From: Halorubrum sp. PV6
GTDB taxonomy: Archaea > Halobacteriota > Halobacteria > Halobacteriales > Haloferacaceae
Direction of reading: 5' to 3'
NCBI RefSeq assembly: GCF_003990725.2
Contig: NZ_CP030064.1
Coordinates: 930,001 to 994,000 of the forward strand
Length of the DNA: 64,000 nt
The translations under genes and the position numbers were made by a program. The notes beneath the pieces are model-generated. The model did not search any database. It saw nothing but the letters and a program-made list of their open reading frames with translations, and was not told where the DNA came from. Below are positions 1-30,476 of this stretch, one piece after another. How positions within the stretch are numbered: the stretch's first letter is position 1; each line of letters begins with the position of its first letter.

Positions 1-212
1 GGGCGCTGAAGGGGCAAACGCTTGCGGTTGCTTATAAATGAACTAGCCCCCGCCGCGGCGTTCGGTTCCGCAGAAAATCGCGGCGGGGTCTATTTATCCG
101 TATCTGCCGCCGTCGACCACGCCGAACTCGGGGAGTGGCGGCCGAACGGGAGGCCGTCGTCAGCGGGTGGCGCGCTGTGGTCCCGCTGGGAACTCCCGAC
201 GGCGCCGTCGCC
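1..212. other. Intergenic edge region with TATA-like element
   Basis: No convincing gene is seen here. A strong TATA-like element (TTATAAAT) lies at about 31-38. Read on the minus strand it would place a transcription start near position 10, so it probably serves a gene to the left of the window. A weaker AT-rich patch (TATTTAT) is at about 91-97. The rest is GC-rich sequence downstream of the arsC-like gene. Confidence 0.4.
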
Positions 213-632
213 CTACGCAGACGCGTACTCGTCGAAGAGGGCCGACACGCGCTGTCGGATCTCGTCTCTGATCTGTCGGACCTCCTCTACCGACTGTCCG
301 TGCGGGTCGTCGAGCGCCCAGTCGCGCACCTCGACGTCCGCGTCGAGCTCCAGCGTCGAACAGCCCATCGTTGCGACGACGGTCGCGTCGTTCAGCTCCG
401 CCGTTGAGACCGCTCGCGGGACGCGGTCGGAGAGGTCGACGTCCAGCTCCGCCATCGCCTCGACGACCTCGGGGTGGACCTCGTCCGCGGGGTGTGTGCC
501 ACCCGTCAAAACGCGAACTTCGTCGTCGAGCCCGCGCCGCGAGCGCTCCCGCTCGGCGAACGCCGTCGCCATCTGACTGCGGCCCGCATTCTGTACACAG
601 ACGAACCCGAGCGTCACCGCTTCGTCGCTCAT
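213..632 (-). CDS. Low-molecular-weight phosphatase / ArsC-like protein
   Basis: This 139-residue protein belongs to the LMW protein-tyrosine phosphatase fold, which includes thioredoxin-linked arsenate reductases. The P-loop CVQNAGRS (Cys12 to Arg18, the CX5R signature) is near the N-terminus, and the general-acid loop appears as WALDDPHG near residues 110-117. Arsenate reductases of this fold normally relay electrons through two further cysteines. Here only the one in MGCST is present and the second relay cysteine is not seen, so either a phosphatase role or a variant reductase role is possible. A TATA-like element (CGTTATGTTC) lies about 27 nt before the ATG, which suits a leaderless transcript. 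No other ars genes are adjacent. Confidence 0.75.
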   Translation of the reverse strand: MSDEAVTLGFVCVQNAGRSQMATAFAERERSRRGLDDEVRVLTGGTHPADEVHPEVVEAMAELDVDLSDRVPRAVSTAELNDATVVATMGCSTLELDADVEVRDWALDDPHGQSVEEVRQIRDEIRQRVSALFDEYASA

Positions 633-813
633 ACACTCCCTGTCGGCAACTCGAACATAACGGTGTCTAAGAGTGCTATTGTGCCGTATATAGACCGCTT
701 CGAGCGATTCGCCCCCGAAATGTCGACGCGCTGCGGACGCAGGAACCCCAGCGGGCAGCGTCGGCAGCGACCGATGGCTCGCGGTTATCTCCGCTCGGCC
801 CTACCGTACTGCT

Positions 814-1338
814 ATGGACGCGCGGCACCGCAACGCGACGAACGGACGGCGACGGGACGTGAGCGCGGGCGTCGTCGCGGCGTCCGCGGCCCTCCTCGGC
901 GCGTTGAGTTATACGCTCGTCGTCGGGGTCGCCCCGGTTCGACTCTCCGCGGACGCGCAGTACTGGGCCGCGTACGCGCCGCAGTGCTCCGCCGTCGCCG
1001 GGTTCCTCGTCGGGACCGTCGGGTGGCGGCGCGTCGTGTCGCGAGCCTCCACCCCCGGACGGGGGGCGCTCGCGGGCGTCGCGTTGGCGCTCTGTGTCGT
1101 CGTTCTCGTCCCGATCCTGGCCGCGGCGTACGTGAGCGCGTTTCCCGTCCTCCTCAGTGTCGCCACCGGCCAGCCGGTGCGGTCCGCGCTCTCGCTGTAC
1201 CCGGAACCGCTCTGGGCCGCCGTCGACGTCGCTCGAACCGTCGCGACGTCCTGGAGTCCGTTCGTCGGTGCGTCGCTGGTCCCACTCGGGGCGCTGGCCG
1301 GGTGGGTCGACCAGCGTCGCGGTGGATCCGGCCGTTGA
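814..1338 (+). CDS. Hypothetical four-helix membrane protein
   Basis: I do not recognise this 174-residue protein. After a short basic N-terminus it has about four hydrophobic segments (roughly residues 17-37, 55-70, 82-110 and 145-162), so it should be an integral membrane protein. The loops carry Arg-rich patches and the C-terminus ends in a short charged tail. A TATA-like stretch (GGTTATCTCC) sits about 27 nt upstream of the ATG and supports this start. It lies alone between the divergent phosphatase gene and the large histidine kinase; function cannot be inferred from position. Confidence 0.6.
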   Translation: MDARHRNATNGRRRDVSAGVVAASAALLGALSYTLVVGVAPVRLSADAQYWAAYAPQCSAVAGFLVGTVGWRRVVSRASTPGRGALAGVALALCVVVLVPILAAAYVSAFPVLLSVATGQPVRSALSLYPEPLWAAVDVARTVATSWSPFVGASLVPLGALAGWVDQRRGGSGR

Positions 1339-13039: not shown

Positions 13040-13897
13040 ATGGATCTCCGCATCGACCACGTGACGGTCGCGGGTCGAGACCTCGACCGGCTCGCCGACG
13101 CGTTCGGCGACGTCGGCCTCCCGGTCGAGTACGGCGGTCGCCACTCGAACGGCGTCACCCACATGGCGATCGTAGGATTTCGAGACGGGAGTTACGTCGA
13201 ACTTATCTCGACGATAGCGCCGGAGGCCGAGTCGCCGTGGTGGAACGGTCCGATTCGCGAGGACGGCGGTCCGTGCGCGTGGGCGGTCGAGGTCGACGAC
13301 ATCGAGGCCGTCAGCGCCGACCTGCGCGGCCGCGGTGTGCCGGTCGACGGGCCCTCGACGCACGAGCGCACCCGCGCCGACGACACGCTCGTCGAGTGGG
13401 ACCTGACGTTCCTCGGGGAGGGGGACGCGGGCTCGACCCTCCCGTTTCTCATCAGCGACCGAACGCCCCGCGACTGCCGCGTTCGACCGACCGGCGACCT
13501 GGCGTCGTCGCCGATCGTCGGGGTCGACACGGTCGTGTTGGGGGTTCCCGACCTCGACGCTGCGGCGAGGCGGTTCGAAACCGCGTTCGACGCGGGCCGT
13601 CCGACGCTCGGTTCGAGCGACCGGCTCGCGGCGACCACCGCGTCTTTTCCCGACGCGCCGGTCGTGCTGGCAGCGCCCGACGACGGCGGCTGGCTCGCCG
13701 ACAGGCTCGCCGCCTTCGGGCCGCGCCCCGTCGCGTATCTCCTCGGCGTCGACGGAGACGACGCGTCTCGACGCCCCGAGGTTGATACCGACGCCGCCGG
13801 GTCGCTCGCCGGGCGAGCGGTCGAGTGGCTGTCCGTGCACCATCCGGTCGGTCGCCCGTACCTCGGACTCGTCGACGCGCGGACGCGACGCGCTTAG
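13040..13897 (+). CDS. VOC/glyoxalase-like domain protein
   Basis: This 285-residue protein begins MDLRIDHVTVAGRDLDRLAD, the start of a vicinal-oxygen-chelate module, and contains HSNGVTHMAIVGFRDGSYVE followed by ELISTIAPE. A second module starts at about residue 160 (VGVDTVVLGVPDLDAAARRF). The layout resembles glyoxalase-like (Glyoxalase_3) proteins of haloarchaea and bacteria, whose substrates are unknown. Metal ligands are plausible (His7, His35/His40 area, Glu) but not proven. The ATG at 13040 is chosen because it opens the first domain; longer in-frame reading is GC-rich shadow sequence. It is followed by the convergent histidine kinase gene. Confidence 0.75.
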   Translation: MDLRIDHVTVAGRDLDRLADAFGDVGLPVEYGGRHSNGVTHMAIVGFRDGSYVELISTIAPEAESPWWNGPIREDGGPCAWAVEVDDIEAVSADLRGRGVPVDGPSTHERTRADDTLVEWDLTFLGEGDAGSTLPFLISDRTPRDCRVRPTGDLASSPIVGVDTVVLGVPDLDAAARRFETAFDAGRPTLGSSDRLAATTASFPDAPVVLAAPDDGGWLADRLAAFGPRPVAYLLGVDGDDASRRPEVDTDAAGSLAGRAVEWLSVHHPVGRPYLGLVDARTRRA

Positions 13898-13947
13898 CCG
13901 CCTCGCGATCGGGTTTCCGAGTAGACACGTACGGCGATCAGAGGCCG

Positions 13948-14961
13948 CTACTCGTCGAATTCGACGCCCGCTATCTCGAACCGCGCTCCGCCGTCGGCGC
14001 TCTCCCCAATCCGTACCTCCCAGTTGTGTCCGGCGACGATCTGTTGGACGATGCTCAGCCCGAACCCGGTGCCCGTCCCCTCGGTCGTGTACCCGGTCTC
14101 GAAGACGCGGTCGCGCTTGCCGCGCGGGATTCCCGGTCCGTCGTCGGCCACGGAGAACCCGTCGTCGGTCGCCGCGACGGTCACGCGGACGTCCGAGCCC
14201 CCGTGTTCGACCGCGTTCCGGAACAGGTTCTCGAAGAGCTGCTGGAGACGCGACTCGTCGGCCATCACGCGCCGATCCCCGAAGGGGATGTCGAGTTCCG
14301 CCTCCGGGGTACTCACGTTGCGCCAAGCGTCCTCCGCGATCGCCGTCAACGCGACCGAGGTCACCTCGCCGATCTCGCGGTCGCTCTGTGCGAGTTCCAG
14401 CAGCTCGGTTATCAGTACCCCCATCCGGTCGAGCGCGTTGTCGACGAGCCGTAGCTCGTCCCGACTGACGTCCTCTTGGAGCATCTCGATGTACCCTTGC
14501 GCGACGTTCAACGGGTTCCGGAGGTCGTGCGAGACGATGCTCGCGAAGTTCTCGAGCCGTTCGTTCTGGCGCTCGATCTCCTGTTCTCGGGCTTTCCGGA
14601 CCGAGATATCTTTGATCGTCCCGAAGTGGTACGACGTGCCGCCGATCGAGCGCTGCGTCGTGACGGTCGCGACGGGAACGGTGTGCCCGTTGTGGGTGTG
14701 TCTCGTCTCCGCCTCCCGCGTGTCACCGTCCTCGAACGACTCCCAGTACTCGTCGAAATCGGCCGCTTCGATCGCCGGAACGACCTCCCACAGCGGTCGT
14801 CCGATCAGCGCCGACGGCGTGACGCCGAACAGGTCGGCGTACGACTGGTTGACGTAGGTGTATCGCCCGTCTTCGCCGTAGATACCGACGCCCACACCGA
14901 CGGACTCGACCATCTTCGCGAAGAATTCGGGCTCTAGGGTAGTTGGAGAATCAGATGACAT
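13948..14961 (-). CDS. PAS-domain sensor histidine kinase
   Basis: This 337-residue soluble kinase has one PAS domain (about residues 12-125, including YVNQSYADLFGVTPSALIG), a HisKA dimerisation helix with phospho-acceptor His145 in IVSHDLRNPLNVAQG, and HATPase_c with N box NLFRNAVEHGG, G1 VADDGPGIP and G2 GTGTGFGLSIV. All catalytic motifs look intact. No receiver or regulator gene is adjacent, so it is probably an orphan kinase with a distant partner. An AT-rich promoter stretch (AAAATATTTTAC) lies about 25-35 nt upstream on the minus strand. Confidence 0.9.
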   Translation of the reverse strand: MSSDSPTTLEPEFFAKMVESVGVGVGIYGEDGRYTYVNQSYADLFGVTPSALIGRPLWEVVPAIEAADFDEYWESFEDGDTREAETRHTHNGHTVPVATVTTQRSIGGTSYHFGTIKDISVRKAREQEIERQNERLENFASIVSHDLRNPLNVAQGYIEMLQEDVSRDELRLVDNALDRMGVLITELLELAQSDREIGEVTSVALTAIAEDAWRNVSTPEAELDIPFGDRRVMADESRLQQLFENLFRNAVEHGGSDVRVTVAATDDGFSVADDGPGIPRGKRDRVFETGYTTEGTGTGFGLSIVQQIVAGHNWEVRIGESADGGARFEIAGVEFDE

Positions 14962-20441: not shown

Positions 20442-21608
20442 ATGAGTAAACGGGACACAGGAGACGAGTTCGATTACGACGCCGTCGTCGTCGGCGTTGG
20501 CGGCATGGGAAGCGCCGCAACCCATCACCTCGCCGCGCGAGGGGTTGACGTCCTCGGACTCGAACGATACGACATCCCGCACGCGATGGGGTCGTCGCAC
20601 GGCGTCACCCGAATCATCCGAAAAGCGTACCACGAGCATCCCGACTACGTCCCGCTGCTCGACCGGGCGTACGAACTCTGGGACGACCTCGACGCCCAAC
20701 ACGACCGAGCGTTGCTCCACACGCACGGGTCGCTCGCCCTCGGTCGGCCCGACTCGGAGACCGTCACCGGTGCCGAAGCGGCGTGCCGGCGCCACGACAT
20801 CGACTACGAGCGGTTGGCTGCGGCCCAGATCAACGAGCGATTCTCGGGGTTCGACCTTCCGGACGAGTTCGTTGGCATCTACCAGCCTGAGGGCGGCTTC
20901 CTGTGGTCAGAGCAGTGTATCGTCGCGCAAGTCAACGCGACCCATCGCGAGGGCGGGACGATCCGCGCTCGCGAGCGGGTGACCGAGTGGGAAGCAACCG
21001 ACGAGTCGGTGCGCGTCGTCACGGACCGAGACACCTACACGGCCGAAAAACTCGTCGTCGCCGCCGGGGCGTGGGCGCCGAACGTGCTGCCCGAACTCGC
21101 CGCCGTACTGCAGCCACAGCGGCAGGTTCTCGGCTGGTTCCAGCCCGCCGAGCCCGCGAACTTCCATCCCGAGTCGATGCCGGTCTACATCATCGAACGC
21201 GACGCGGACGACCTCTACTACGGCTTCCCGCAGTTCCACATACCGGGCGTGAAGGTCGGCAAACACTATCACTTCGGAGAGGACGCAGCCCCGGACGAGA
21301 TGGCACGCGAGCCCCGGAGCGATGACGAAGCCGCCCTCCGAGAGTGGCTGGCAGACGGGCTACCGACGGCGAACGGGCCGCCGTTGTCGCTGTCGACCTG
21401 CCTCTACACGAACACGCCCGATAAGGAGTTCATCGTCGACCACCACCCCTCACACGACAACGTCGTCGTCGCCTGCGGGTTCAGCGGACACGGATTCAAG
21501 TTCGCGAGCGTCGTCGGCGAGATCCTCGCCGACTTAGCGATCGACGGCGAGACCGACCATCCGATCGATCGGTTCGCGGCCGACCGGTTCTCCACCCACA
21601 CCTCGTGA
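20442..21608 (+). CDS. solA: Sarcosine / N-methyl-L-tryptophan oxidase-like flavoprotein
   Basis: This 388-residue FAD-dependent amine oxidase of the MSOX/MTOX family has the dinucleotide fold VVVGVGGMGSAATHHLAARG at about residues 14-33, then GSSHGVTRIIRKAYHEHPDY, LVVAAGAWAPNVL and, near the C-terminus, CLYTNTPDKEFIVDHHP and CGFSGHGFKFASVVGEI. It would oxidise N-methyl amino acids such as sarcosine, giving formaldehyde and hydrogen peroxide. The expected covalent-flavin Cys corresponds to Cys in the SLSTCLYTNTPD stretch. ATG 20442 is chosen; an in-frame ATG at 20391 would add 17 unlikely residues. It stands alone upstream of the AddAB-like pair. Confidence 0.87.
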   Translation: MSKRDTGDEFDYDAVVVGVGGMGSAATHHLAARGVDVLGLERYDIPHAMGSSHGVTRIIRKAYHEHPDYVPLLDRAYELWDDLDAQHDRALLHTHGSLALGRPDSETVTGAEAACRRHDIDYERLAAAQINERFSGFDLPDEFVGIYQPEGGFLWSEQCIVAQVNATHREGGTIRARERVTEWEATDESVRVVTDRDTYTAEKLVVAAGAWAPNVLPELAAVLQPQRQVLGWFQPAEPANFHPESMPVYIIERDADDLYYGFPQFHIPGVKVGKHYHFGEDAAPDEMAREPRSDDEAALREWLADGLPTANGPPLSLSTCLYTNTPDKEFIVDHHPSHDNVVVACGFSGHGFKFASVVGEILADLAIDGETDHPIDRFAADRFSTHTS

Positions 21609-21630
21609 CAAAGGTTTAACTCGCGCCCAC

Positions 21631-21644
21631 CACCTCGTGAGGTG
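21631..21644. promoter_or_regulatory. Operator-like palindrome over addB-like start
   Basis: CACCTC-GT-GAGGTG is a perfect 6-bp inverted repeat with a 2-nt spacer. It ends on the first base of the GTG start codon of the AddB-like gene. The TATA-like GGTTTAAC at about 21614-21621 lies just upstream, so a bound protein would block initiation. The 10-mer CACCTCGTGA inside it also occurs at 21599-21608, exactly 32 bp upstream. Confidence 0.5.
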
Positions 21645-24229
21645 TGCCACTTCCCCGTGCGAAATCGCCGCGCCGGCTCTATCGCGAGGTCCGCTCGTGC
21701 GACCGCGTGATAACCCCGGACGGCCCTCTCGCAAGCGCGATCAACCGACAGCTCGACCGTTCGCATCTCGGCCCCTTCGCCATCCCGCCACGCCGATTGG
21801 CCGCTGGCCGGCGGCAGGCCTCCGAGGACCGCCTCGCGTTTCTCGACATCATCGCCGAGGAGGACATCCCCTGGAAGCGCTGTGCGTACGCCGTCGGGAA
21901 CATCCTCCAGTGCTGGGAGCATCAGGGGTCACACGAGGCGATCTTCGAGTACGACGCGTACGTCGACGACGCGACGACGCGCGCGGTGGAGCGCATCGCG
22001 CAGTTGGACACCGCCTCGATGAGGCTCACAACCGAGACGATCGACCCGACACACGACGTCGTCGTGGTCGAACCGGCGATGCTCACGCACCTCGAACGGT
22101 CGTACCTCCCTGCGGCGTACGACACGGTCAGCCTCTTCACCGACGAAGCGTTTTCGCTGCCGCCGTTCCGGATCCACGAGTCGCCGACGGCGATCGTCAA
22201 GACGGTCGTCGACGCGATCTCGAAGGAGACGGCCGAGACCGTCGGGATCGTCCTCGATCAGCGGAGCGAGTACTCACCACTCATCGAATCGGCGCTCGAA
22301 TCGGCGGAGATTCCGTTTTTCGGCGGTCCCGGATTCACCGACCGGAGCGAGCACCGACTGTTTCTGCAGTTCCTCCGGACCGCGTATCGCGGCACCGACA
22401 CCCGACTCACCCAGATTCGCTCGTTGCTCACGGCGCTCGGCTGTACGGTCGCGGATCGCGACGCGAACAAACGCCTCCACGAGCTCGAAACGGACGACCT
22501 CGCGTGGCTGAAAGGCGTCTGTCGCGACATCTCTGCGTACACCTTCGGCGAAGCGCTCGCGGCCTTCGAGCGCCGGACGGACACCACGCTCGACGCGTTC
22601 GAAGCGGAGCTCACGACGCTCGGCATCGCCGACGAGCCGCTCACCGAGCGCCGCCTCGACGAACTCGCGTACTACCTCCAGACGTACGAGGTGCCGGTCG
22701 ACCGCGAGAACGAGGGCGTGTTGCTCGCCGACGCGAAGTCCGCGTCCTACGTCGGGCGGGAGGTCGTGTTCCACCTCGGACTCGACGAGGGGTGGACGCA
22801 CGCGGCGCCCCGCCGCCCGTGGGTCGATCACGACGCCCAGTTCGAGCGAAACCTCAACAGCTTCCAACTGCTGGTTCAAAGCGGGAACCAGCAGCACTAC
22901 CTCGTCCAGGACGCGGCCGGTGGGTCGCCGGTGACGCCGTCGCTGTACTTCGAAGAGCTGTTCGACGCAGACATCGACCGGTTCACAGACCTGCCGTCGA
23001 CCACTCACCGGACGGCCACCACCCGAGCGGACGCGGCCGGGTTCGAGCGACGCCCCACGGACGTGCCCGCCAAACCGATCGAGACGATCAGCAAATCGAG
23101 TCTCAACACCTACGTCAACTCGCCTCGCGACTACTACTTCAGCCGGGTCGTGGACGGCCCCGAGAGATCGTATCTCACCGAGGGCACCCTGCTGCACGAT
23201 TTCGCCGAGTTCTACGCGACACATCCCGAGGCCGTCGACGACGCGGCGCTCACGGAAATCGTGGAGCTGCTGAGCGAGCGCGTCCGGCCGCTCGTTCGCG
23301 CAGCCGACGAGCAGACGCGCCGCACTGAGTACCGCGCCGCCTTGGAGACGATCGCGGCGTATCTCGACGCGAACCCGCCCGCAGACGGCGCCTTCCTGAC
23401 ACCGTCGAGCGGGGGCGAAAACGCCATCGCCGACCACTTCGAGATGGCCGTCGACTCACCGGCCACCGAACGGCGATTCGTCGACGCGGACCGCCACATC
23501 GACGGGATGATCGACCTCGTCGAATCGCCCAGCGGCCTCCTCGATTACAAAAGCGGGAGCAAAGACACCGCGAACGCCATCGTGAAAAACGCCGCGAGCG
23601 ACGACCCGACCGACACGCCCGACTTCCAAGCCCCGCTCTATCTCACCTACTGGCGCTCGCAGACGCCCGACGAGACGCTCTCGTTCACGTTCTTCTACGT
23701 GACCGAACTCGTCGACGACGTCATCACCGGTGACGCCGACCTCGACGAGGCGCTCACGACGGTCAGCTACTATCCGGAATCGCCGACGGAACACGTCCAA
23801 CGAAAGGCGTTCTTCGAACACCTCCGCGAGGAGGGGTCGGGAAAGTGCCGCAAGATCCTCTCGAAGATAGAGTACCCGACGTACGCGGCGCTGTTCGATG
23901 CGGCGCCGTTCGTCGAAACGACCGACAGCGACGAACTCATCGAGTCGGGGTTCGGCCAGACGATGATCGACCGGCTCGAAGCCGAAATTGGCGACTACAA
24001 GTACGTGACGACGGGCAGCAAGCAGGCGATGCGCTCGATGGCGGACCGACAGCGGTCTGCCTTTTTCGAATCCGACCTCGACGCGTTCGAATCGTTCGTC
24101 GACGCGCAACTGACGGATCTCAATCACCGCCGCACCGGCGCCGAGCCGTTCCCCGTCGCCGGCCCGAGCGGCGAGCCGAACTACCGACGCGTGGACAATC
24201 GGGACTTGCTGTTGGAGGGCGAGCGATGA
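21644..24229 (+). CDS. AddB-like PD-(D/E)XK nuclease, partner of AddA-like helicase
   Basis: This 861-residue protein has a helicase-like body without a Walker A motif and a C-terminal PD-(D/E)XK nuclease: GTLLHDFAEFYATHP near residue 515, DGMIDLVESPSGLLDYKSGS near 622 and QAPLYLTYWR, equivalent to the His...Asp...Glu/Asp-x-Lys...Gln-x-x-x-Tyr series of RecB/AddB nucleases. The middle (VFHLGLDEGWTHAAPRR and nearby) resembles the inactivated helicase domains of AddB. The cysteines of the AddB iron-sulphur cluster are not evident (the SLNTYVNSPRDYYF stretch lacks them). Start is GTG 21644, about 27 nt after a TATA-like element. It overlaps the AddA-like gene by 4 nt. Role: probable double-strand-break end resection or defence. 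Confidence 0.75.
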   Translation: MPLPRAKSPRRLYREVRSCDRVITPDGPLASAINRQLDRSHLGPFAIPPRRLAAGRRQASEDRLAFLDIIAEEDIPWKRCAYAVGNILQCWEHQGSHEAIFEYDAYVDDATTRAVERIAQLDTASMRLTTETIDPTHDVVVVEPAMLTHLERSYLPAAYDTVSLFTDEAFSLPPFRIHESPTAIVKTVVDAISKETAETVGIVLDQRSEYSPLIESALESAEIPFFGGPGFTDRSEHRLFLQFLRTAYRGTDTRLTQIRSLLTALGCTVADRDANKRLHELETDDLAWLKGVCRDISAYTFGEALAAFERRTDTTLDAFEAELTTLGIADEPLTERRLDELAYYLQTYEVPVDRENEGVLLADAKSASYVGREVVFHLGLDEGWTHAAPRRPWVDHDAQFERNLNSFQLLVQSGNQQHYLVQDAAGGSPVTPSLYFEELFDADIDRFTDLPSTTHRTATTRADAAGFERRPTDVPAKPIETISKSSLNTYVNSPRDYYFSRVVDGPERSYLTEGTLLHDFAEFYATHPEAVDDAALTEIVELLSERVRPLVRAADEQTRRTEYRAALETIAAYLDANPPADGAFLTPSSGGENAIADHFEMAVDSPATERRFVDADRHIDGMIDLVESPSGLLDYKSGSKDTANAIVKNAASDDPTDTPDFQAPLYLTYWRSQTPDETLSFTFFYVTELVDDVITGDADLDEALTTVSYYPESPTEHVQRKAFFEHLREEGSGKCRKILSKIEYPTYAALFDAAPFVETTDSDELIESGFGQTMIDRLEAEIGDYKYVTTGSKQAMRSMADRQRSAFFESDLDAFESFVDAQLTDLNHRRTGAEPFPVAGPSGEPNYRRVDNRDLLLEGER

Positions 24230-27090
24230 GCGAGTTCTCTCCAAATCCCGAACAGCAGGACCTCATCACCTCGCTCGATGGCCTGTATCTCGTCGACGCC
24301 GGGGCGGGCACCGGGAAGACGTTCACCGTCACCCGCCGCTACGCGAACATCGTCGGCCAAGACGAGATCGACCCGACAGACGTCCTGTTGGTGACGTTCA
24401 CCAACAATGCAGCAGAAGAGATGCGAGACCGGATCGTGCGCCAGAGCGCGTACGGGATGCGAGCGCTCGCGGACGCGCCGATTCAGACCTTCCACTCGCT
24501 GGCACACGACATCCTCACCGAGCACGGGCACGACGCGCCGACGCACCTCGGGATCGACGAGCCGATCACCGGGTCGACGCGAATCGTCGAAGACGAGATC
24601 ATCGAGCGGTCGCTGTTCCGCGAGTTCATCGGCCAGTTTACGGACGCCCACCCCGCGTACGAGCCGTTCTTCGCGGCGGTCGACGACCCCACCGAGCTGC
24701 TGTCGCTCATCACGGAGCTCTCGGCCAAGGGCGTCTTCCCGACGGAAACGGGGTGGTACCGGAACGGCGAATCGCACCTCGACGGGGAGTTCGACGCGTT
24801 CGCGTCGCTGTTCGACGACCTAAACGAGCCGCGAAACGGCGGCAGCAAGCAGTCGAAACTCCGATCGAAGCTGTACCGATACGGCAAAGACAAGACGTAC
24901 CTCCCGGCGGCGCCCGAAAAGTGGGACCTTCGCGGCGACGGCAAACGGGTCCCGCCGGACACCGCCGAGCGCGCCTTCGAGCGCGATCGAACGGCGCTCA
25001 AAGCGTTCGTCCACGACCTCTATCACTCGTATCTCGAGTTCGCGCTGGGGCGCAACTACCTGAACTTCGGCTTCCTCCAGCTGTTCGCGTTCGTGCTGCT
25101 GTGTGAGGACCACGAGCTGCGCGAGCGACTCAGCTTTGAGTACGTGATGGTCGACGAGTTCCAGGACTCCAGTGAGATTCAGTTCAAGCTCATGCTGCTT
25201 TTGGCCGGCACGGACAACCTCTGTGTCGTGGGTGACTGGAAACAGAGCATCTACAGCTTCCAGTACGCCGACGTCGACAACATCCGCGAATTCGGCGACC
25301 GGCTGGAGACCTTCGCCGCGGAGCTCAACGACGGCGCCGACCGGGTGCAGTTCCCGACGGCGCCGATCACGACGAAGAAACTCACTCGCAACTACCGCTC
25401 TACGCAATCCATCCTCGACTTCTCGACGGACGCGCTCACGGCCAAGGCGACGAACCGCGAGTCGCTCGACGCGGAGGCGGTCGCGAGCTCGGTGACCGCA
25501 CTCGACGCGGCGACGGACCGAGACGAGAGCCGCATCGAGGCGCTCGCGAGCGAGGACGAACACGAGGCTATCCTCGCGAAGATCGACGACGTCGTCGGCA
25601 ATCCCGAGTACGCGGTAGAGGGCGACGAGGGCACGTACGAGCCGCCAGAGTACGGCGATATTGCGGTGTTGACCCGGACGCGCGACTTCGGCCGCGAGCT
25701 GCTCGAAACGGCGGCCGACTACGACCTCCCGATGGCGTACGAGGGCGGGATGGAGGTGTTCCGTACGGACGCGGCGAAGCTTCTGTTGGCGTGGCTGCGG
25801 ATTCTCGAACGCGACGCGGCCCGTGGCTGGGCGCTCGTCCTCGAAGCGGCGGGATACACGATCGACGAGACGAACGCCTTCCTCGACCGCGGGTCGTACC
25901 CCGACGCCATGACGGCGTTCCGCGACGACCTTCGTGAGTTACCGACGCTCGGGGGCGTCGCCCGCCGCGTGTTCGACCGGTACGGCCTGAGCGGCCCGAC
26001 CGCCGATGTCGTGCTCGAAACGGTCCAATCCGTCCACGGGACGACCACGTTCACTCGCGGAGAGGTGATTCAGTTCATCGAGGACGCGATCGCCGACGGG
26101 AGCACCCACGAGGTCGCGGGCGGCGCCGGTACGGACGCGATCACCGTACAGACGATCCATGCGACGAAGGGGCTCGAATATCCCATCGTCATCCTCGCGA
26201 ACATGAACGCCAACACGTTCCCGTCGACGGGCGGCGGCGGGAGCACAATCGAGTACGCCGACCCGATCGGCCTCAGACAGCGCAGGCTGTACCGCGACGA
26301 CGTACACGACGTGCCGTACGTCTACGACAACTGGCAGACGGACGTGTTGAACGCGTGTCTCCCCCAGCAGTACGACGAAGAGCGCCGGCTCCTCTACGTG
26401 GCTATCACGCGCGCCGAGAGCCACGTCGTGTTCACGAGCGGCCCCAACCCGAACGCGTTCCTCGAATCGCTCCCGGTCTCCATCGAGACCGTCGAGCCAG
26501 ACCTGTCCGCTTTCGAGCCGTCCCCGAGCGAGCACGCGCCATTCGTCGTCGACATCCCGGAGCCTGCCGGCCCGGCGAGCTACTCGCCGCACACGTTCGT
26601 CGACGACGCCGTGTTCGAGGGCGACACCGGCGGGCGAGGCATGGCGTTCGGGTCGGCCGTCCACGAGTTCGCAGAGCGGTACGCCCTCGACGAATCCGTG
26701 ACGGCCGACAACACCGACGAACGACACGTGAAGACGTTCTTAGACTCGCTACAGGGTGAGACGAAAGCGGAGATCGACGCGTACCTGCCGCTGACGGTCG
26801 GTGGCGAATCGGTCTCGATCGGCGGGATCATCGACCTGCTCCACGTGACGTCCGAGAAGGCGGCGATAATCGACTACAAGACGGACCGGACGACTCATGC
26901 AGCGTCCGAGTATCAGAAGCAGCTCAGCGTCTACTACCACGTCGTCGCCGACCAGTACCCAGACCGAACGGTCTCCGCGTCGATTTTCTATACGGCGGAC
27001 GGGACCCGGAGCACGATCACCCCGCTCAGCAAAGCGGAGCTCAGGGAGATGGTCGCTGCGAAAAAAGACCCGGACAGCCACCCACGATAG
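24226..27090 (+). CDS. AddA-like UvrD-family helicase-nuclease
   Basis: This 954-residue SF1A helicase has Walker A AGAGTGKT (residues 25-32), motif Ia LLVTFTNNAAEEMRDRI, TFHSLAHDIL, motif II VMVDEFQDS, motif III VVGDWKQSIYSF, motif IV LTRNYRSTQSIL, motif V QTIHATKGLEYPIVILAN and motif VI LLYVAITRAE. A C-terminal RecB-type nuclease follows: AFGSAVHEFAERYAL, then GIIDLLHVTSEKAAIIDYKT with QKQLSVYYHV. The architecture (helicase then nuclease) matches AddA/RecB. The start ATG overlaps the AddB-like stop in ATGA, so the two subunits are co-translated. Start 24226 begins with the expected Q-motif-like SPNPEQQDLI. Confidence 0.88.
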   Translation: MSEFSPNPEQQDLITSLDGLYLVDAGAGTGKTFTVTRRYANIVGQDEIDPTDVLLVTFTNNAAEEMRDRIVRQSAYGMRALADAPIQTFHSLAHDILTEHGHDAPTHLGIDEPITGSTRIVEDEIIERSLFREFIGQFTDAHPAYEPFFAAVDDPTELLSLITELSAKGVFPTETGWYRNGESHLDGEFDAFASLFDDLNEPRNGGSKQSKLRSKLYRYGKDKTYLPAAPEKWDLRGDGKRVPPDTAERAFERDRTALKAFVHDLYHSYLEFALGRNYLNFGFLQLFAFVLLCEDHELRERLSFEYVMVDEFQDSSEIQFKLMLLLAGTDNLCVVGDWKQSIYSFQYADVDNIREFGDRLETFAAELNDGADRVQFPTAPITTKKLTRNYRSTQSILDFSTDALTAKATNRESLDAEAVASSVTALDAATDRDESRIEALASEDEHEAILAKIDDVVGNPEYAVEGDEGTYEPPEYGDIAVLTRTRDFGRELLETAADYDLPMAYEGGMEVFRTDAAKLLLAWLRILERDAARGWALVLEAAGYTIDETNAFLDRGSYPDAMTAFRDDLRELPTLGGVARRVFDRYGLSGPTADVVLETVQSVHGTTTFTRGEVIQFIEDAIADGSTHEVAGGAGTDAITVQTIHATKGLEYPIVILANMNANTFPSTGGGGSTIEYADPIGLRQRRLYRDDVHDVPYVYDNWQTDVLNACLPQQYDEERRLLYVAITRAESHVVFTSGPNPNAFLESLPVSIETVEPDLSAFEPSPSEHAPFVVDIPEPAGPASYSPHTFVDDAVFEGDTGGRGMAFGSAVHEFAERYALDESVTADNTDERHVKTFLDSLQGETKAEIDAYLPLTVGGESVSIGGIIDLLHVTSEKAAIIDYKTDRTTHAASEYQKQLSVYYHVVADQYPDRTVSASIFYTADGTRSTITPLSKAELREMVAAKKDPDSHPR

Positions 27091-28587: not shown

Positions 28588-28775
28588 GTCCGGGCCAACA
28601 CACCGGGTATCAAAAAGTACTGGTACTACCACTACTGTCTGCCGACACATCGACGATCGACGAACTCCGGCGGCGAGCGCCGCCCGCAGCGGAGCCGCAC
28701 CAAGCGGTCTGCGCCCGTGGAGTCTCGATATAAATATAATGAATATTTATACGCAACGGGCGGGTATCTGTCGAT

Positions 28776-30476
28776 ATGTACGACGATGAGGACCTCTCCG
28801 CGCTCCGCGAGGCCCACGCGGAGTGGAAAGCGGAGACGCTCGGCCCGACCCTCGACCGCCACGGCGAGCGGCGCGACCGGTTCGCGACGGTCTCGAACCA
28901 CGAGGTCGATCGCTTATATACCCCCGCTGACGTGGCCGACCTCGACTACGACGCCGACCTCGGGCTCCCCGGCGAGGAGCCGTACACGCGCGGCGTCTAC
29001 CCCACGATGTACCGCGGGCGAACGTGGACGATGCGGCAGTTCGCCGGCTTCGGCACCGCCGAGGAGACGAACGAGCGGTTTCAGTACCTCATCGACGAGG
29101 GGCAAACCGGGCTCTCGACCGCCTTCGATATGCCCTCGCTGATGGGACTCGACTCCGACGACCCGATGTCGCTCGGCGAGGTCGGCAAGGAGGGCGTCGC
29201 CGTCGACACCCTCCGCGACATGGAGGTGCTGTTCGACGGCATCGACGTGAGCGAGGTGTCCACCTCGTTCACCATCAACCCGAGCGCGCCGGTGATCTAC
29301 GCGATGTACGTCGCCATCGCGGACCAGCAGGGCGTCCCGCGCGAGGCGCTTCGGGGGACCCTCCAAAACGACATGCTGAAGGAGTTCATCGCGCAGAAAG
29401 AGTGGGTGATCCCCCCGGAGCCATCCCTCGATCTCGTCACCGACACCATCGAGTTCGCGGTCGAGGAGACGCCCAACTTCAAGCCCGTCTCGGTGTCGGG
29501 CTACCACATCCGCGAGGCCGGATCGACCGCGGCACAAGAGCTCGCCTTCACCCTCGCCGACGGCTTCGCGTACGTCGAGGCCTGCCTCGACCGCGGGCTC
29601 GACGTCGACGCGTTCGCCCCGCAGCTCTCCTTTTTCTTCAACTCACACAACTCGATCTTCGAAGAGGTCGCGAAGTTCCGCGCCGCCCGCCGGATCTACG
29701 CGCGGATCATGGGCGAGTGGTACGACGCCGAGGCCGACGCCGCGAAGCGGCTGAAGTTCCACACCCAGACCGCGGGCCAGTCGCTGACGGCCCAGCAGCC
29801 CTTAAATAACGTCGTCAGGGTGACGCTGCAGGCGCTGGCGGGCGTCCTCGGCGGCACCCAGAGCCTCCACACCAACTCCTTCGACGAGGCGCTGGCGCTG
29901 CCCTCCGAGCAGGCCGTGCGAGTCGCGCTCCGCACCCAGCAGATCATCGCCGAGGAGTCCGGCGCGGCCGACATCGTCGACCCGCTCGGCGGCTCGTTCG
30001 CGGTGGAGGCGCTCACCGACGAAATCGAGGCCGAGGCGACGGCGTACATCGAGGAGATACGGGAGATGGGCGACGGCTCCGTCCGCGACGGCGTGCTCCG
30101 CGGCATCGAACAGGGGTACTTCCACCGCGAGATACAGGAGTCCTCCTACGAGTACCAAGAGCGGGTCGACTCGGGCGCGGAGACCGTCGTCGGCGTCAAC
30201 GCCTACGAGACCGACGACGACACGCGCCCGGACCTGCTCCACATCGACGAGACCACCCGCGAGCGGCAGCTCGCGCGCCTCGAATCGGTGAAGGCGGAGC
30301 GCGACGACGCGGCGGTCGAGGCGGCGCTCGACGAACTCCGGGCGGCGGTCGACGCCGGCGAGAACACCATGCCGGCGGTCGTGACGGCGGTGAAGGCGTA
30401 CGCGACGATGGGCGAGATCATGGACGTCTTCGAGGCGGCACACGGGAGCTACCGGGAGCGCATCGGGGTCGCGTAA
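28776..30476 (+). CDS. mcmA: Methylmalonyl-CoA mutase, large (catalytic) subunit
   Basis: This 566-residue protein is the substrate-binding TIM-barrel subunit that interconverts methylmalonyl-CoA and succinyl-CoA with a cobalamin partner. Recognisable stretches include [69 protein letters not shown] and [20 protein letters not shown]. The C-terminal B12-binding domain is absent, as is normal for the archaeal two-subunit enzyme, but the small subunit and the MeaB-type chaperone are not next door. The promoter TATTTATACG lies about 27 nt upstream. Likely role: propionyl-CoA assimilation or the methylaspartate cycle (inference). Confidence 0.95.

Follow-up and report, generated by a model that had tools for sequence, protein, structure and literature searches.

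In bacteria, machines of the AddAB type are known for their part in DNA repair, and the occurrence of a similar pair of genes in a haloarchaeon raises the question of what such an enzyme would do in an archaeal cell: whether it tends the host's own DNA ends, or is an acquired module with another task. The pair lies in a 64,000-nucleotide stretch of Halorubrum sp. PV6 DNA (hereafter the window, meaning the whole of the stretch that was analysed). Two overlapping genes for an AddB-like and an AddA-like subunit, here B and A, had been proposed in the initial annotation of this DNA, and both were confirmed at the following coordinates, together with the features that the argument below depends on.

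21607..21620, plus strand: promoter-like box with a TATA-like tttaa at 21615-21619, judged by eye, near-identical in the closest relatives
21644..24229, plus strand: gene B, AddB-like subunit, GTG start, 861 amino acids (Pfam, predicted structure, conserved residues)
24226..24229, plus strand: ATGA overlap of the B stop and the A start, four shared bases
24226..27090, plus strand: gene A, AddA-like subunit, ATG start, 954 amino acids (Pfam, predicted structure, conserved motifs)
Subunit B, residues ~4-456, plus strand: SF1-helicase-like body lacking Walker A (predicted structure)
Subunit B, residues ~477-856, plus strand: PD-(D/E)XK nuclease (predicted structure)

The ATGA overlap may couple translation of A to that of B. 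Overlap or near-overlap of the two genes is seen in 64 of 78 named loci when the longest frame is taken as the start, the junction in the remaining 14 being blurred by frame choice or broken frames. The promoter-like box ends about 24-26 bases upstream of the B start; its TATA-like element, 26-30 bases upstream, is by eye common to groups of relatives, and DNA similarity among many relatives stops about 40 bases upstream of B, while the box itself is near-identical in the closest. That the box is kept within groups of relatives, with the sequence further up often different, suggests that the cassette brings its own putative promoter; its spacing suggests a leaderless B transcript. Base composition is close to that of the surroundings (GC 65.7% for B and 64.9% for A, 68.0% for the window; third-position GC 0.86-0.88), and a cassette of foreign composition is thereby ruled out.

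Anatomy of subunits A and B

In subunit A, Pfam finds the N- and C-terminal UvrD domains together with PDDEXK_1. Among NCBIfam models PcrA scores best (197.7 bits), then AddA (165.5), then UvrD and others, all far under cut-off; the AddA models reach 165.5 and 145.2 bits, against curated cut-offs of 707.65 and 860.75. PADLOC returns only generic helicase models for A (a DRT-associated helicase and GajB) among the best 25 of 55 matches. For the predicted structure of A (mean pLDDT 76.9), ranks 1-4 of a Foldseek search are all AddA chains (best E 3.8e-36). When matches are ordered by Z, PcrA and UvrD chains lead on the helicase part (25.8) and stand above AddA, which covers both helicase and nuclease (Z 21.9, 796 aligned residues, rmsd 24.8). 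Among the stretches in A that we take to be SF1 motifs I-VI, 18 of 20 helicase positions checked are invariant in 104 sequences, the other two, A727 and T729, being kept in 103 and 100 (residue numbers in this count run from 24223, one codon before the ATG). Six nuclease positions are kept in 102 to 104 of the 104 sequences, the exceptions being L035, where the gene is cut short, L056 and L144; sequence set A1 omitted L034, and set A2 omitted L029 and L035. The proposal of an AddA-like helicase-nuclease with SF1 motifs is thus borne out by Pfam, by Foldseek and by near-invariant motif residues.

Subunit B shows PDDEXK_1 only in Pfam (residues 482-745, E 2.8e-14), and neither an NCBIfam family nor a PADLOC match at E<=0.01. 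Its sequence profile finds no PDB chain at E<=1, so that it is the predicted fold that ties B to AddB. The model was built from 39 input sequences, with a mean pLDDT of 80.3 and a pTM of 0.49. Ranks 1-5 of its Foldseek matches are all AddB chains of solved AddAB structures (E 6.6e-12 to 1.1e-10; TM-scores near 0.3). A second aligner (VIA) gives a Z of about 15 to AddB over about 640 residues (model residues 4-843), with an rmsd of about 23 that arises because the domains sit differently, the match holding domain by domain and not as one body. A UvrD chain ties with AddB at a Z of about 15, but covers residues 4-456 only, and residues 477-856 match an Argonaute-associated nuclease of the Cas4 family (Z 12.2, rmsd 3.9). 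From the structural matches of these two parts, B is predicted to be a helicase-like body followed by a nuclease of the Cas4/AddB type.

Comparison of 106 distinct B proteins, in which copies with identical ends were counted once, agrees with this division. Residues G514, H518, E522, D624, D634, K636, Q662 and Y666 of the nuclease are invariant in all 106. A Walker A motif (GxxxxGK[ST]) is found in none of the 106 within the first 80 aligned residues, and the N-terminal SF1 helicase fold of the model is an inactive one. The CxxCx4-8C spacing typical of the AddB Fe-S cysteines is likewise absent from the nuclease half in 106 of 106; this half has a single cysteine in 29 of the proteins, and position 493, which resembles the first Fe-S cysteine, is serine in 84 and cysteine in 22. 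Both parts of what had been said of B therefore held: it is AddB-like, with a dead helicase body (recognised through predicted structure) and a PD-(D/E)XK nuclease, and it has no visible Fe-S cysteines. The invariant or near-invariant active-site residues of B and A indicate that both nucleases and the motor of A are under selection.

Likeness to AddAB and other helicase-nucleases

Bacterial AddAB (PDB 4cej, 4cei, 4ceh, 3u44, 3u4q) provides the top Foldseek structures for both models. As in AddAB, a full SF1 helicase with a C-terminal nuclease (A) is joined by a subunit in which an intact PD-(D/E)XK nuclease follows a helicase-like body (B), and the gene order, B then A, is that of AddAB in Bacillus subtilis. 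The differences are several: haloarchaeal B has 861 amino acids, against 1132-1156 residues in the AddB chains, and neither the Fe-S cysteine pattern nor Walker A; A falls far under the curated AddA cut-offs and the B profile has no PDB sequence match at E<=1; and the haloarchaeal pair is patchy and mobile. An extract of PMC4824097 describes the four-cysteine Fe-S cluster in the AddB nuclease domain as important, and the inactive AddB helicase domain as held to read Chi. Judged on the anatomy of the models, the pair very probably works like AddAB; with the Fe-S cysteines gone and the scores below the family cut-offs, it is taken as a variant of AddAB and not as a member. The assignment to an AddAB-like pair in the initial annotation is supported by the predicted folds of A and B. 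Profile searches, in which A matches PcrA and then AddA below cut-off and B has no NCBIfam match, do not confirm AddAB, and they name no other helicase-nuclease family in its place.

Other systems share some of these features. Mycobacterial AdnAB has a nuclease in each subunit, as here, and is among the structural matches of both models, but its helicase motor motifs are present in both subunits, whereas Walker A is absent from 106 of 106 B sequences. Among the structural hits A also matches RecB, and B matches RecC; in RecBCD, however, the RecC nuclease is dead and the RecD gene supplies a third component, whereas the nuclease residues of B are intact and no third gene recurs in more than 5 of 40 loci. 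Gabija places the OLD-family nuclease GajA beside the GajB helicase; A does match GajB models, the best stretches lying in its helicase part, but B shows only PDDEXK_1 in Pfam. The UvrD-Cas4 fusions treated in part of PMC5704561 are helicase-nucleases of the pfam12705 group, found in bacteria and mesophilic archaea beside restriction genes and proposed as parts of defence; each is one protein, and section 8 of that paper does not describe a helicase-like partner. PMC5704561 also gives the Cas4 family four Fe-S cysteines, whereas the nuclease part of A has three at most (among 104 sequences, none in 80, one in 18, two in 5 and three in 1).

Distribution and movement of the cassette

Of 292 Halobacteria genomes searched, 122, about two in five, have matches to both genes. 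B is found in 126 of the 292 (E<=0.001), spread over 48 of 77 genera, and A in 125 (E<=1e-60), spread over 49 of the 77, with B alone in four genomes and A alone in three. One or both genes are missing from 170 genomes, seven of which hold pieces only; short remnants of A escape the count because of the different thresholds used for B and A. In one remnant, residues 1-47 of B remain and the end of A comes no more than 30 bases further on, an arrangement that an internal deletion would leave. The pair is thus not universally conserved, which agrees with its proposed standing as an acquired module, and a housekeeping pair is ruled out.

A search of the phylum found matches in 27 of 246 genomes, two of them outside class Halobacteria (L165 in genome G293 and L166 in G318; in their respective classes 60 and 3 genomes were searched, with one match in each). 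B and A are adjacent in both. The proteins of L165 and L166 have more acidic than basic residues, and the genes are about 40% GC (L165) and 63-65% GC (L166); the L165 B protein keeps a cysteine (YCPKDLFF) where B of the window has serine. Plasmid records matching B number 34, all of them haloarchaeal, and 33 have at least 80% of B; 12 of 40 fetched loci, that of the window included, lie on contigs of at least 2.7 Mb. On the Salinigranum rubrum plasmid NZ_CP026311.1 (H21), B is split into two parts, and the annotation places an IS5-family transposase beneath the matched stretch. Phage records searched with B gave no match, and a scan of viral contigs, made with one protein of the window and so limited in reach to close relatives, yielded a single candidate, which was no relative; a viral origin was rejected on these results.

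The two genes travel together. A follows B in all 40 fetched loci (up to 20 kb each) and adjoins it in 78 of 80 named loci; in both exceptions the contig ends within B. Tree distances of A and B correlate with an r of 0.93 over 75 loci, and 39 of 72 splits are common to both trees. In the clustering of neighbours, B itself appears in 39 of 40 loci, its place in L057 being taken by a longer overlapping frame; no third gene family stands beside the pair in more than 5 of the 40, which rules out a three-gene system.

Between the window and the closest long loci, DNA similarity begins at 21600-21700 and ends at 26951-27054, which coincides with the edges of the genes. Halobellus captivus and Halorubrum sp. 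CSM-61, although of different genera, have copies with 96.7% identity; the similarity stops 39 bases upstream of B and 10 downstream of A, with no other flank in common. Pairs of named loci with neither an extension of at least 300 bases nor 500 bases of other shared flank make up 44 of 107 at >=85% identity and 259 of 290 at 72-85%, contig ends helping to produce some of these sharp edges (e.g., L092). On well-supported branches of the B tree, the minimum number of changes is 9 for the 24 Halorubrum rows and 7 for the 9 Halobellus rows, although genus mixing on this tree alone is no proof of transfer.

Downstream of the cassette in the window lies a methylmalonyl-CoA mutase gene (28776-30476) with a query match in 52 of 52 members of the genus. 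A clean empty site was sought in 8 fetched regions of relatives but not found; similarity to the window stops at 28728-28736, short of the cassette, and the entire upstream stretch therefore differs there. The segment 14000-28730 of the window, upstream of the mutase gene, is absent at that place in eight relatives, which may reflect a rearrangement or the edge of an island. Transposon ends were looked for by eye at the cassette edges and none were seen. From these sequence comparisons the pair is probably a mobile, accessory two-gene cassette, and the view that it was acquired is supported by the patchy distribution, the remnants, the mixing of genera and the shifting surroundings.

The initial annotation had set the pair against an archaeal background of end resection mainly by Rad50-Mre11-HerA-NurA, a premise whose HerA-NurA part calls for caution. 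NurA-domain genes were found in 96 of 97 haloarchaeal genomes, including that of the window, and in the Haloferax volcanii control genome, and since this nuclease family is near-universal, it is taken to be core and the AddAB-like pair extra; a reading in which the pair stands in for an absent NurA was given up on this result. On the other side, nurA/herA are called absent in H. volcanii in an extract of PMC7776575 and not apparent in halophilic archaea in one of PMC12977600. The NurA-domain protein of the window's own genome is at G000:C1:2329058-2330026 (L184, ~13467-14756, minus strand), and in genome G002 the NurA match has a strong DUF87 (HerA-like) match on its own strand, at a distance of about 1.2 kb.

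Surroundings and possible roles

The flanks of the cassette in the window encode a PQQ beta-propeller protein, an FAD oxidase, an alcohol dehydrogenase and the methylmalonyl-CoA mutase, which by Pfam look metabolic and not defensive. Elsewhere the company varies. Up to two genes per side were compared at 35 loci (134 proteins) with 139 control proteins from about half a contig away, four loci on short contigs and one second copy within a genome being left out of the 40; the genes came from our own gene caller, which covered about 74% of test-locus bases. At E<=1e-10, 152 PADLOC families match near the cassette against 58 in the controls, a count of families and not of proteins that overstates the difference, because one BrxHII neighbour alone matches 23 models. 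Strong matches near the cassette, among the best 25 of 152, include BrxHII, BrxA, DrmD and Type IIG enzymes; strong single-protein matches in the controls, among the best 25 of 58, include BrxHI (2.4e-101), SngC, IetA, DpdJ, Csx1 and a Cas12f-type protein. The most frequent Pfam domains near the cassette include transposase DDE (5 proteins), ResIII (4), N6 methylase (2) and McrBC (2), and in the controls ABC transporter (5), the AAA domain and metabolic enzymes. Five of ten neighbours chosen for their length match PADLOC at E<=1e-20 (BrxC, BrxHII, Type I and Type IIG restriction enzymes and an SNF2-type helicase), and the other five have no match at that level. The surroundings of some relatives, which sit beside BREX or restriction genes, thus lean towards defence, but the controls hold some such genes too and the flanks in the window are metabolic.

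Of the 33 near-complete plasmid copies, 10 were inspected within 10 kb of B, and a transposase or integrase was present in 9 and ParA or Orc1/Cdc6 in 6. DNA methyltransferase genes lie near the pair in 3 of these 10 annotated plasmid copies, and all three counts cover plasmid loci only. In the plasmid annotations B is a 'PD-(D/E)XK nuclease family protein', and A bears the name 'ATP-dependent DNA helicase' in nine of the ten. Two plasmids from different families, L224 (5472-8747) and L225 (5461-8745), have the same order of a large N-6 DNA methylase gene before the cassette and a TRAM-domain gene after it, which may together form a compound island of defence genes.

On the AddAB plan, A and B would form a heterodimeric, ATP-driven helicase-nuclease. 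A would be the SF1 motor (3'-5' by family) and carry one nuclease; B would be a helicase body that has lost its motor, would hold or read DNA, and would carry the second nuclease. Such a complex may load at the free ends of double-stranded DNA, unwinding the duplex and cutting its two strands. Self-contained, and with an apparent promoter of its own, the two-gene cassette would move among haloarchaea on plasmids and chromosomes, and its accessory defensive task would be to destroy foreign DNA that comes in or is broken. With modest confidence, then, the pair is regarded as a mobile AddAB-like end-degrading machine, most likely for accessory defence, which is preferred over repair on account of its mobility, its loss and its company. 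Several observations weigh against defence: the metabolic look of the window's own neighbours, the strong defence-type matches in control regions, the five of ten long neighbours with no PADLOC match at 1e-20, and the PADLOC search itself, which has no match for B and reaches A only through generic helicase models (best 25 of 55). The pTM of 0.49 and TM-scores near 0.3 for B weigh against the AddB fold that this reading includes.

Bacterial AddAB being a repair enzyme, repair is the default by homology. In that case the pair would be an accessory to double-strand-break repair, resecting ends to be used by RadA in recombination, the part that AddAB plays for RecA, perhaps with a Chi-like stop read by B, and adding to Mre11-Rad50 and NurA-type nucleases. 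The AddAB fold and subunit plan, the retention of both nucleases and the part in Chi reading ascribed to the inactive AddB helicase domain (extract of PMC4824097) favour such a role; the 170 of 292 genomes that lack one or both genes, seven with pieces, and the near-identical copies in different genera and on plasmids speak against it, and it is entertained only tentatively. The same plasmid copies, 33 of 34 haloarchaeal records having at least 80% of B, would suit a role in plasmid maintenance or competition, in which the cassette, as cargo, repairs or protects the replicon that carries it or degrades rival plasmids in their linear forms. ParA or Orc1/Cdc6 genes, present within 10 kb of B in 6 of the 10 copies inspected, would suit it too, although such genes are found on plasmids anyway and the count covers plasmid loci only. 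This role is improbable, with 12 of 40 fetched loci, including that of the window, on contigs of at least 2.7 Mb. Supply of DNA fragments for CRISPR adaptation, a role stated for bacterial RecBCD and AddAB in an extract of PMC9051519, is very improbable: Cas1 is present in 46 of the 122 genomes that carry the pair and in 56 of the 170 others (Fisher p 0.46, kinship ignored), so that it is not associated with the pair, and the window's genome has no Cas1 match.

A more specific form of the defence reading is a rather doubtful one. It would make the pair a free-standing immune system in which the dead-helicase subunit reads a mark of self (a Chi-like sequence or a chromosome feature) and the AddAB-type motor-nuclease destroys unmarked DNA ends, the two-gene unit, having lost the Fe-S cysteines that bacterial AddAB requires, spreading through archaea with near-exact edges, two of its holders being outside Halobacteria.

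Among the matches listed (mostly titles and abstract openings) in open-access literature on archaeal AddAB, Haloferax RecB/UvrD and haloarchaeal defence, no publication on the pair was found. Here the AddAB plan takes the form of a moving cassette in 122 of 292 haloarchaeal genomes, with its active sites intact and its Fe-S cysteines gone. If it serves defence, an end-degrading system would be added to archaeal immunity, along with the question of how host DNA is spared; if it serves repair, the pair may explain differences in recombination between strains. Both readings are testable in genetically tractable haloarchaea.
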